DNA from: Tropheryma whipplei str. Twist
Lineage (GTDB): Bacteria; Actinomycetota; Actinomycetes; Actinomycetales; Microbacteriaceae
NCBI RefSeq assembly: GCF_000007485.1
Contig: NC_004572.3
Span: 310,001-374,000, forward strand
Length of the DNA stretch: 64,000 nucleotides
Direction: 5' to 3'
Part shown: positions 7,700 to 10,863 of the stretch, one piece after another
Layout of the letters: each line of letters opens with the position of its first letter
Position numbering within the stretch: position 1 is the first letter of the stretch
Notes under the pieces: model-generated
Told to the model about the DNA's origin: nothing
Databases searched by the model: none
The model's input: the letters and a program-made list of their open reading frames with translations, nothing else
Program-made: the position numbers and the translations under genes

Positions 7700-8449
7700 A
7701 TGACAGTTATAGATAATGCCTATCAGAACTTTCTTTATTGCCGCAAGCAGCGCAAAGATTACGAGAGGGTCTGTAAGATACGTACAAAGATTATAAGGAG
7801 GTTTATCCTGCTTGCATGCGCTGTCTTTCTACTGTTCTGTATGCTTTCGGCTTATTCACCAGTTATGTCTCTGCGCAGTATCCGAGTGGCTGGCAATATG
7901 CAAGTCAAGACCGATGATATAGTGGCCGCTCTTCGCGGGGAGTTTAACAAACCGCTTGCCTTTGTTGATCCGGAAACTGTTAGAAAAAAGCTGGCTAAAT
8001 TTAAGTTACTAAAGGAGGTTACAGTGGAAGCCAAACCCCCAGGGGCGATACTTGTTAGAGTCTCCGAACGTGTGCCGCTCGCCTTTTTAGAGAGACCGGA
8101 CGGCTTTCATGTGCTGGATGAAGACGGCGTTTCGCTGAAGGTAACCCAAAGTCCCCCATTGGGAATGGTAAGAATTGATGTGAAAGATGGTAATCAAGAG
8201 CAGCTTGTTGCTTCCCTTGGGTGGGTAATTGCAAATATTCCAGATGCCCTTAAAAAACGTGTAGACCTCATTTCTGCCGAGACCCCATCGGGAATAAATC
8301 TCAAACTTGATAACAGTACTAAAACCGTGTTTTGGGGTAGTTTTCAAAACAGCAAACTAAAAGCAAAAGTGCTTGAAAAGCTGTTATCCATTCCCGGGCA
8401 TTACAGTAGTTTTAATGTCTCCGCACCAGAAGCCCCAGCAGTGAGCTAG
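7700..8449 (+). CDS. ftsQ: FtsQ, divisome protein with POTRA domain
   Basis: Bitopic membrane protein of the divisome. About 249 residues: a basic cytoplasmic N-terminus, one hydrophobic segment around residues 34-54, then a POTRA domain beginning with SLRSIRVAGNMQV and the LLKEVTVEAKPPGAILVRVSER strand pattern that characterises the FtsQ/DivIB family. It closes the mur cluster. In most actinobacteria ftsZ follows directly, but here the next gene is on the opposite strand and is not ftsZ. Confidence 0.92.
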   Translation: MTVIDNAYQNFLYCRKQRKDYERVCKIRTKIIRRFILLACAVFLLFCMLSAYSPVMSLRSIRVAGNMQVKTDDIVAALRGEFNKPLAFVDPETVRKKLAKFKLLKEVTVEAKPPGAILVRVSERVPLAFLERPDGFHVLDEDGVSLKVTQSPPLGMVRIDVKDGNQEQLVASLGWVIANIPDALKKRVDLISAETPSGINLKLDNSTKTVFWGSFQNSKLKAKVLEKLLSIPGHYSSFNVSAPEAPAVS

Positions 8450-8514
8450 GCCGATAGTTTTTAGCATATGTGTTCTTATTTGTGTGTGTAATGGGGGATT
8501 CTTAGTGTCAAGGC

Positions 8515-9012
8515 TCACACTCCAAATCCAGCACGCGTTATCATCAGCCCGCATTCTTCATCTTCTCTAATAGTGAGCTCTATGGTCATTTCGTTACCAA
8601 TTAGATTTTTGAATCTTATCTGTACATCGGCACTTTTATCGGTTAATGTGATAACCCTGAATTTTAGGCTCTGTGCTGCCGGTGATATTTTGGAAACAAC
8701 TGTTGTATGACTTTTCAGTGTTCTGCTCAGAAGTGGATTTAGATATCTACTGACAAGCATCGGCTTTCCTTCACTAACGGCTAAGAAATACGCGTAAGTA
8801 ATTTTCTTTAAGTTTTCCACAGACAGTAAACCGTTAGGTTTATCGATTACAGATAAGGAATCTGTGCCGCGTATATCATCCGTGTTATTCACAGAATTTC
8901 TTGCCGTTTTATAGCTGTTGCATTGCACATGTTTGATGAATTTTGCATGCATTGTTATCCACAATCGCTTTCCTAAAATTTCAGGTCTACATATTACGTA
9001 GACTGAGTGCAC
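8515..9012 (-). CDS. Hypothetical protein, Rv3235 family-like
   Basis: Small soluble protein of up to 165 residues. The C-terminal two thirds (a helix ending in YAYFLAVSEGKP, a region LVSRYLNPLL, then alternating strands ending ITRAGFG) resemble the layout of the actinobacterial Rv3235 (DUF6459) family of unknown function; this is recognition by eye and not certain. The start is uncertain: the first ATG (9012) falls inside a 16-bp palindrome, and later in-frame ATG or GTG codons are possible. The N-terminal coding region contains three DnaA-box-like 9-mers, with a fourth just upstream. No signal peptide or membrane segment is evident. Confidence 0.6.
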   Translation of the reverse strand: MHSVYVICRPEILGKRLWITMHAKFIKHVQCNSYKTARNSVNNTDDIRGTDSLSVIDKPNGLLSVENLKKITYAYFLAVSEGKPMLVSRYLNPLLSRTLKSHTTVVSKISPAAQSLKFRVITLTDKSADVQIRFKNLIGNEMTIELTIREDEECGLMITRAGFGV

Positions 9013-9044
9013 TCAGTTTTTCTTGAAAGAAATTTTGTGGAAAA
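8813..9044. promoter_or_regulatory. Cluster of four DnaA-box-like 9-mers
   Basis: TTTTCCACA (8813-8821), TTATTCACA (8885-8893), TTATCCACA (8955-8963, exact consensus) on the plus strand and TTTTCCACA on the minus strand (9036-9044). The spacing is about 72, 70 and 81 bp. Single boxes also occur elsewhere in the window (TTTTCCACA in glnA near 35012, TTATCCACA in rel near 48616), but only here do several lie together. Three of the boxes lie within the 8515-9012 reading frame. Confidence 0.5.
9002..9021 (+). terminator. Perfect 16-bp palindrome followed by a T run
   Basis: ACTGAGTGCACTCAGT (9002-9017) is a perfect palindrome that can fold as a six-pair stem with a TGCA loop, followed by TTTTT on the plus strand. 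It looks like a weak plus-strand terminator, or alternatively an operator overlapping the start of the minus-strand gene. No plus-strand gene ends close upstream. Confidence 0.35.
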
Positions 9045-9065
9045 AGTTTGCTGTTGGTGTATTTT

Positions 9066-9129
9066 CAAACGGTGCAGGTCCCACAACCCCTGTTGTTGTA
9101 GTACACCCTAACAATCGGACAACCGTTTG
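9066..9129 (+). other. Nested inverted repeats in the intergenic stretch
   Basis: CAAACGGT (9066-9073) pairs perfectly with ACCGTTTG (9122-9129), and inside this lies ACAAC-CCCT-GTTGT, a second stem. The 9013-9214 interval has no convincing reading frame. The structure could be a leader RNA of the 9215 gene, a small RNA, or part of the neighbouring DnaA-box region. No known RNA family was recognised. Confidence 0.3.
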
Positions 9130-9214
9130 CCTCACCTGTATCTGTAACAGGGCAGTCATTCGTCTTCGGCCCAAGTGCATCGGTGAGCCTGTGAAACATA
9201 TTTTGTCTAGTTGA

Positions 9215-9733
9215 ATGCGATGGGGTATATCTGCAACATACGGCAGTGATAGACTTCTGTATGTTGTGGATTTGAGGGTGGATGGTTTTTTTCGGATTGT
9301 TGACCGCTTGTGTGGCGGCAGGCCTGCTCGTGTTGCCCTCGATTCTTCTGCGAATAAAAGGCTTCAGGTTGTCCTGCTGCTTCTTTTGTTTGATCTCTTG
9401 CTGACATTCGGGTTTTTTGTGTATTCATTGTCTGGCCTGTTTGTGCATCCCGTATCGGCCTACAGATCTGCGGTGCTTTTATGCCTTTCCCTGGGTTCCC
9501 TGTATTTTGTGCTTAGGGCCCGTTTGGGGTATGTGTGGGCTTTTGGTAGATTGAGGCTTTTTGCAAAAATAGCACCCTTAATTGCACTTGCAACTCTGGC
9601 TTTTTCTGGTCTGTATCCTTCTTGGGAATTCAAGCTTGAGCAGGTTCTTTTCTCTGTTATTCTCTTTACCTCTTCTATTGTTCTTGAGTCGCGTCGACTT
9701 ATATGGGTGTTTTTTTGTCCGGCCAAAACCTAG
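9215..9733 (+). CDS. Hypothetical four-helix membrane protein
   Basis: About 172 residues with four hydrophobic segments (approximately residues 48-72, 82-102, 112-132 and 140-158) after a 45-residue hydrophilic N-terminus. I do not recognise the family. It sits just upstream of the garA-like FHA gene in the same direction, with about 30 bases between them, so co-transcription is plausible. No clear ribosome binding site precedes the ATG at 9215, and a somewhat later start cannot be excluded. Confidence 0.6.
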   Translation: MRWGISATYGSDRLLYVVDLRVDGFFRIVDRLCGGRPARVALDSSANKRLQVVLLLLLFDLLLTFGFFVYSLSGLFVHPVSAYRSAVLLCLSLGSLYFVLRARLGYVWAFGRLRLFAKIAPLIALATLAFSGLYPSWEFKLEQVLFSVILFTSSIVLESRRLIWVFFCPAKT

Positions 9734-9763
9734 GGGTTTTTCTCCTGCGTGAGGGGGGTTTCT

Positions 9764-10180
9764 GTGTCTAATGTGCCTGAGGGCGAGACAACGCTTGTTA
9801 ATCTCAGTGCTGCTCTTTCTTATTCACAGCCTCTTACCCATGAGGAGCGCCAGGTAATTTCAGCTCTGCCGCCCGGGGCGGGGCTGTTGATTATCAGGCG
9901 TGGTGGTTATTCGGGCTCCCGGTTCTTGCTTGATACGCAAATTTCTATTGCCGGAAGGCATCCGGCCTCTGATATTTTTCTTGATGATGTTACCGTTTCT
10001 AGGCGTCATGCAGAATTCAAACGCGACGGTGATATTTTTAGAGTTGTTGACTTGGGTTCCCTGAACGGTACTTTTGTTATGCAGCAAAGAGTTGACAATG
10101 CTGTTCTGTGTGATGGCTTCGAGGTGCAAATTGGTAAGTTTCATCTAACCTTTTTTACCTCAAAGGCCCTGAAAGGCTAG
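9764..10180 (+). CDS. garA: GarA/OdhI-like FHA-domain regulator
   Basis: Small forkhead-associated protein of about 138 residues. In mycobacteria and corynebacteria this family binds and inhibits 2-oxoglutarate dehydrogenase and acts on glutamate dehydrogenase, and Ser/Thr kinases relieve the inhibition by phosphorylating an N-terminal threonine. The ETT motif is at residues 8-10, and the FHA domain has AGRHP (near 61), the VSRRHAEF motif and SLNGTF (near 98). GTG 9764 is preferred because a GAGGGGGG ribosome site (9751-9758) lies just upstream; a GTG at 9749 lacks one. It is followed by two MerR genes, as in the mycobacterial Rv1827-Rv1830 region. Confidence 0.9.
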   Translation: MSNVPEGETTLVNLSAALSYSQPLTHEERQVISALPPGAGLLIIRRGGYSGSRFLLDTQISIAGRHPASDIFLDDVTVSRRHAEFKRDGDIFRVVDLGSLNGTFVMQQRVDNAVLCDGFEVQIGKFHLTFFTSKALKG

Positions 10181-10185
10181 GTATT

Positions 10186-10863
10186 TTGTCTTCTGCGCAA
10201 GAAAAAACTGATCGTCCATTTACCATTGGTCAGGTTTTGTCCATCTTGAAAAAAGAATTTCCGGATGTCACATCATCTAAACTGCGGTTTTTAGAAGAGC
10301 AGAAGCTTATTATTCCGCCCAGGACATCTGCCGGCTACCGGGTGTTTTATCCTGCTGATGTCAAAAGAATAAGGGTTATACTGCGGATGCAGCGCGACGA
10401 ATATCTTCCGCTCAAGATTATTCGCTCCCGCCTTGATTCGGCAAATATTGCTCTTTCGACTACTTCGGGTGTCTCTATGCGGCGTGAGGAGCTTGTATCT
10501 CGTGCTGGTGTTCCGGCAACTCTTTTTACAGAGGCCGTAACCCATTCGCTTATCAAGCCATCAGAGTGTTACGGGCAGGATACTCTCAAACTATTGGTCT
10601 GCCTTGCAGCTCTGAAGAAAATGGGGATTTCACCCAAGCATCTGACATTTCTTAAAAAAACCGTTGATAAAGAGTACCTGCTTTCTCATAACGCTGTTCT
10701 TCCGCTGCGTGTAAGGAAGGATGAGGGGTTGCTTGAACATTCATTTTGTGAGCTCCTCAATAATATGCAGGTAATTCAGGCAATACTGGTATCTCAGGTT
10801 AAAAAAGATTTTTTACAAAGTTCTAAATCTAAGATTGATCCAAAAGATTTGGCCAGTTCTTAA
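10186..10863 (+). CDS. ftsR: MerR-family regulator, FtsR/Rv1828-like
   Basis: Transcription regulator of about 225 residues starting at TTG 10186, five bases after garA. The N-terminal winged helix-turn-helix has TIGQVLSILKKEFPDV, then LRFLEEQKLI and AGYRVFYPADVKRI, matching the Rv1828 group; the Corynebacterium member (FtsR) activates ftsZ. The C-terminal half is a second domain typical of this group, without obvious metal-binding cysteines. Orthology rests on the sequence pattern and on the garA neighbourhood. Confidence 0.85.
   Translation: MSSAQEKTDRPFTIGQVLSILKKEFPDVTSSKLRFLEEQKLIIPPRTSAGYRVFYPADVKRIRVILRMQRDEYLPLKIIRSRLDSANIALSTTSGVSMRREELVSRAGVPATLFTEAVTHSLIKPSECYGQDTLKLLVCLAALKKMGISPKHLTFLKKTVDKEYLLSHNAVLPLRVRKDEGLLEHSFCELLNNMQVIQAILVSQVKKDFLQSSKSKIDPKDLASS

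Follow-up and report, generated by a model that had tools for sequence, protein, structure and literature searches.

Introduction

Among the described DnaA sites outside replication origins, datA, DARS and the DnaA-box clusters of B. subtilis and Streptomyces hold, inactivate or recycle DnaA (PMC4585315). Within the actinobacteria, mycobacterial DnaA binds non-oriC sites both in vitro and in vivo, at Rv0010c-Rv0011c, upstream of dnaB and at Rv3843c-RVnc0040, and mutating one such site lengthens the cells while the initiation rate is unchanged (PMC7738170). The cluster of DnaA-box-like sites described here, from Tropheryma whipplei, shares with the mycobacterial sites an actinobacterial host and a position away from oriC. 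It differs in its gene neighbours, in that binding has been shown for the mycobacterial sites and is predicted here, and in its build, the mutated mycobacterial site being a palindrome of two box-like sequences rather than four spaced boxes. E. coli datA and DARS, like the clusters of B. subtilis and Streptomyces, resemble it in packing 3–6 DnaA boxes into a short stretch outside the origin; however, the B. subtilis and Streptomyces clusters lie close to oriC, and this one is far from it (PMC4585315). E. coli datA and DARS2 use IHF sites. Actinobacteria use an IHF-like protein that is different from E. coli IHF. In the portions returned as literature search matches, T. whipplei was linked to DnaA boxes, or to its division cluster, in passing mentions only.

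Results

Four DnaA-box-like sites lie beside the division cluster

The window is the whole stretch of DNA that we analysed, 64,000 nucleotides spanning positions 310,001–374,000 of a single-contig genome of 927,303 bp. Listed features are numbered within the window, and positions in kb are those of the contig. Counts used the consensus TTWTNCACA unless another pattern is given. A sequence-only reading had reported four DnaA-box-like sites within 232 bp, and we found all four where it placed them:

8813..8821, + strand, DnaA-box-like site 1, TTTTCCACA, exact TTWTNCACA match
8885..8893, + strand, DnaA-box-like site 2, TTATTCACA, exact TTWTNCACA match
8955..8963, + strand, DnaA-box-like site 3, TTATCCACA, exact TTWTNCACA match
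9036..9044, − strand, DnaA-box-like site 4, TTTTCCACA, inverted, exact TTWTNCACA match

The site 3 type, TTATCCACA, has six copies in the genome, site 3 among them. The cluster holds no one-mismatch site beside its four exact ones, and the nine further TTWTNCACA sites in the window are each isolated, as the same reading had it. Spacings within the cluster, at 72, 70 and 81 bp, are more even than is usual for this span (P 0.005). The proposed phasing at about seven helical turns was not supported: with 10.5 bp per turn, these spacings amount to 6.9, 6.7 and 7.7 turns, and the boxes are therefore out of helical phase.

Genome-wide there are 113 TTWTNCACA sites, and four fall within less than 250 bp at only two places, the dnaA-dnaN origin and the window cluster. 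The tightest groups of four sites span 177 bp (oriC), 223 bp (the window cluster) and then 801 bp, this last belonging to an array with a period of 267 bp. Five TTATACACA sites at exact 267-bp intervals (G000:C1:275306-276382) are evidently a tandem repeat and not a DnaA cluster. When sites are placed uniformly at random, finding four of them anywhere within 223 bp has P 3.3e-4; for three among the 16 TTWTCCACA sites outside the origin the value is 8e-5. Under a local first-order model, 0.05 sites would be expected in 232 bp. As a further control we took 600 orderings of the consensus letters, including the true one, over 424 kb of the genome with oriC left out. Only 2 of the 599 permuted patterns reached 223 bp, and both were a single tandem repeat read one base apart. 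The genome-wide count, a check that the earlier reading had called for, and the permuted patterns thus show a cluster beyond chance and the sole one outside oriC, and it is unlikely to be a chance product.

The boxes resemble those of oriC, but the cluster is not an origin

The dnaA gene occupies bases 1–1437 of the contig, and the dnaA-dnaN spacer, at 1.4–1.6 kb, is oriC; TTTTCCACA occurs in this spacer at 1443, 1475, 1527 and 1620. The likeness extends to the flanks, as AGTTTTCCACAG is common to site 1 and two oriC boxes, and TTTTTCCACAAAAT to site 4 and a third oriC box. The base before the box is G at three of four sites in the cluster, three of four in oriC and 4 of 25 sampled isolated sites, which mostly lie within long open frames. 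This contrast, with P 0.004 pooled and 0.03 when the cluster is taken by itself, concerns a feature chosen after looking and few sites. In both 9-mers and flanks the clustered boxes thus match those of the genome's own oriC, and they are of the organism's own box type. Local similarity between cluster and oriC was slightly above the null (5 of 300 shuffles were equally high) because of the boxes themselves. We rejected the cluster as a copy of oriC, as the likeness is confined to the boxes and their flanks and the box order differs.

The suggestion of an unusual origin element was not supported. The cluster lies 319 kb from dnaA, GC skew is positive on either side of it with no switch there, and the true oriC is elsewhere; with no dnaA nearby and no skew switch, the cluster is therefore not an origin. 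In the sampled stretches, GC skew stays mostly positive between ~280 and 410 kb and is then mostly negative as far as ~660 kb, which suggests a terminus near 410 kb. This would place the cluster ~78% of the way along the oriC-to-terminus arm, though only roughly, as the skew is scrambled in other parts of the genome. Sampled skew also changes from negative to positive near 270–290 kb (G000:C1:245001-300000), which is neither at oriC nor at the cluster; an inversion may have left this trace. Sequenced T. whipplei strains have been reported to differ by a large inversion (PMC2078596).

The cluster sits where the division cluster is broken

The genes around the boxes are as follows:

7700..8449, + strand, ftsQ, final division-cluster gene before the junction (PRK05529.1, 4e-127)
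8515..9012, − strand, 165-aa orphan ORF that extends over sites 1–3
9215..9733, + strand, hydrophobic ORF of 172 aa without family assignment, first of the downstream run
9749..10180, + strand, FHA-domain protein of OdhI/GarA type
10186..10863, + strand, FtsR, MerR-type regulator (NF050798.1, 1.4e-48, over cut-off)

The downstream + strand run consists of the 172-aa ORF, the FHA protein, FtsR and then a second MerR-type protein. BLASTP did not support the 172-aa ORF as a diverged PgsA. The overlap with a small gene seen in the sequence-only reading was borne out, as sites 1–3 fall within the orphan ORF. This ORF matched no family above cut-off and had no convincing homolog among 40 relatives, and its predicted fold, with a mean pLDDT of 34, gives no information. 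Over the 5′ part, which contains boxes 2 and 3, its codon score is negative (non-coding-like), and a real gene, if any, may therefore start near 8830.

At the point where that reading had expected ftsZ, the usual position following ftsQ, the gene is missing. It maps instead to about 616.3–617.4 kb on the − strand, ~298 kb from the cluster, with sepF-, divIVA- and lspA-like genes at about 615–617 kb, beside a metallopeptidase-like gene (names of these neighbours are from translations). In one relative (L020) the gene order is der-like, pgsA-like, FHA, FtsR-like, MerR-like, again named from translations, and der in this genome is at 50.6–51.9 kb. This order, together with the distant der and ftsZ here, therefore places the cluster where rearrangement has joined two ancestral gene blocks. 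Relatives sought via FtsQ in a contig collection yielded none.

In C. glutamicum, FtsR regulates ftsZ, and its site is the 25-bp inverted repeat AACCCTAAAGTAAAGGTTGAGGGTA (PMC6683498); the best match to this repeat in 8401–9300 was weak and lay outside the boxes. The two flanking ORFs had no PHROGs match, which argues against a mobile or phage element, and no plasmid similarity was found. An RNA element was also discounted, as Rfam placed RNase P and three tRNAs in the window, all of them away from the cluster.

Relatives carry a different cluster between rplI and dnaB

A two-box search over 60 family genomes, this genome included, gave matches in 13, and we inspected 14 loci. Five of these hold dnaA and dnaN and are origins. 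A further six lie between rplI-like and dnaB-like genes (names from translations), with boxes around a similar GC-rich core near CGGCGTTTCGCGCAG:

L061, 3789–3864, rplI-dnaB box cluster
L062, 3524–3599, rplI-dnaB box cluster
L064, 3770–3943, rplI-dnaB box cluster
L065, 3537–3612, rplI-dnaB box cluster
L066, 3392–3467, rplI-dnaB box cluster
L067, 3449–3524, rplI-dnaB box cluster

Like the window cluster, these Microbacteriaceae clusters carry several TTATCCACA-type boxes in a spacer outside the origin, but they differ in lying between rplI and dnaB, in their shared GC-rich core and in having outer boxes 67 bp apart. Their position is close to the place upstream of dnaB that mycobacterial DnaA binds (PMC7738170). 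In this genome the rplI-dnaB arrangement is lost: rplI is at 125.4–125.9 kb and dnaB, which comes about a dozen bases after another gene, at 850.4–851.8 kb, with no box cluster near either. As with ftsZ, neither gene keeps its usual gene context in this reduced genome. No alignment of the window cluster to the rplI-dnaB element rose above a null in which the boxes were preserved, and the window cluster is therefore not established as a moved copy. A common function of the two is no more than possible.

Discussion

We favour, at a probability of roughly 0.55, the reading that the cluster is a lineage-specific, non-origin DnaA-binding locus with a role in titration and/or transcriptional regulation. 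Its boxes are clustered beyond chance and away from oriC, as in the broad datA / DnaA-box-cluster class, and such a locus would be of a known kind in a new place. We infer DnaA binding from its standing as the sole non-origin cluster, the permuted-pattern control, the lack of near-miss sites and the oriC-like boxes and flanks; the non-coding-like 5′ part of the orphan ORF and the experimentally known actinobacterial non-oriC DnaA sites (PMC7738170) add to this. Counting against it are the distance from oriC, unlike the B. subtilis and Streptomyces clusters (PMC4585315), and the wide spacing of the boxes, which form no obvious cooperative array. Titration would be the simplest role. Lying some three quarters of the distance between oriC and the apparent terminus, the locus would be copied late in every replication round, and DnaA bound there would lower the free DnaA pool. 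Bound DnaA might also modulate transcription of the run starting at 9215, including ftsR.

That last effect could instead be the main one, with DnaA at the boxes regulating either the orphan ORF or the downstream run (9215 ORF, FHA, FtsR, MerR); titration would then be incidental. The 9215 start lies ~170–400 bp downstream of the boxes, a promoter-like site on the + strand (8952–8979) overlaps box 3, and FtsR is the ftsZ regulator of C. glutamicum. Promoter-like sites are, however, no commoner than in shuffles (1 found, 2.3 expected), and the operon structure is inferred from spacing; we consider a purely local switch doubtful. A stronger version, in which the lineage, after genome reduction broke ftsQ-ftsZ and rplI-dnaB, built a new DnaA control site before the FtsR operon so that the initiator directly times division-gene expression, seems to us improbable. 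A functionless cluster left by chance in a rearrangement-made spacer would fit the position at a junction, the AT-richness of the spacer and a box pattern chosen after reading the sequence. The genome-wide P of 3e-4, a control matched by one tandem repeat alone, the low expectation of the local model and the origin-like flanks make this account unlikely. A secondary or relic origin would explain why the box types are those of oriC, and the slight excess of similarity over shuffles is accounted for by the boxes themselves; with dnaA and dnaN absent, skew positive on both flanks, a different box order and a clear oriC already at dnaA-dnaN, we regard it as highly improbable.

If DnaA binds at the favoured non-origin locus, this strongly reduced genome has just a single DnaA-box cluster left outside its origin, newly placed beside division genes, and would offer a simple two-locus case for how DnaA is divided between origin and chromosome. 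Binding would also suggest that DnaA-box clusters can be lost and then rebuilt elsewhere during genome reduction.

Two other box groups in the family were seen. At L063 (3558–3632, G002:C7), boxes with a palindromic pair, TATCCACAGCTGTGGATA, lie near gyrA-like and cyclophilin-like genes, a neighbourhood that resembles the mycobacterial Rv0010c-Rv0011c site. At L060 (3815–3888; G018:C1:1117814-1117887) there is a dense box-like group with no dnaA or dnaN in the surrounding 7.5 kb, and the same genome also has an rplI-dnaB cluster, 69 kb from this group.
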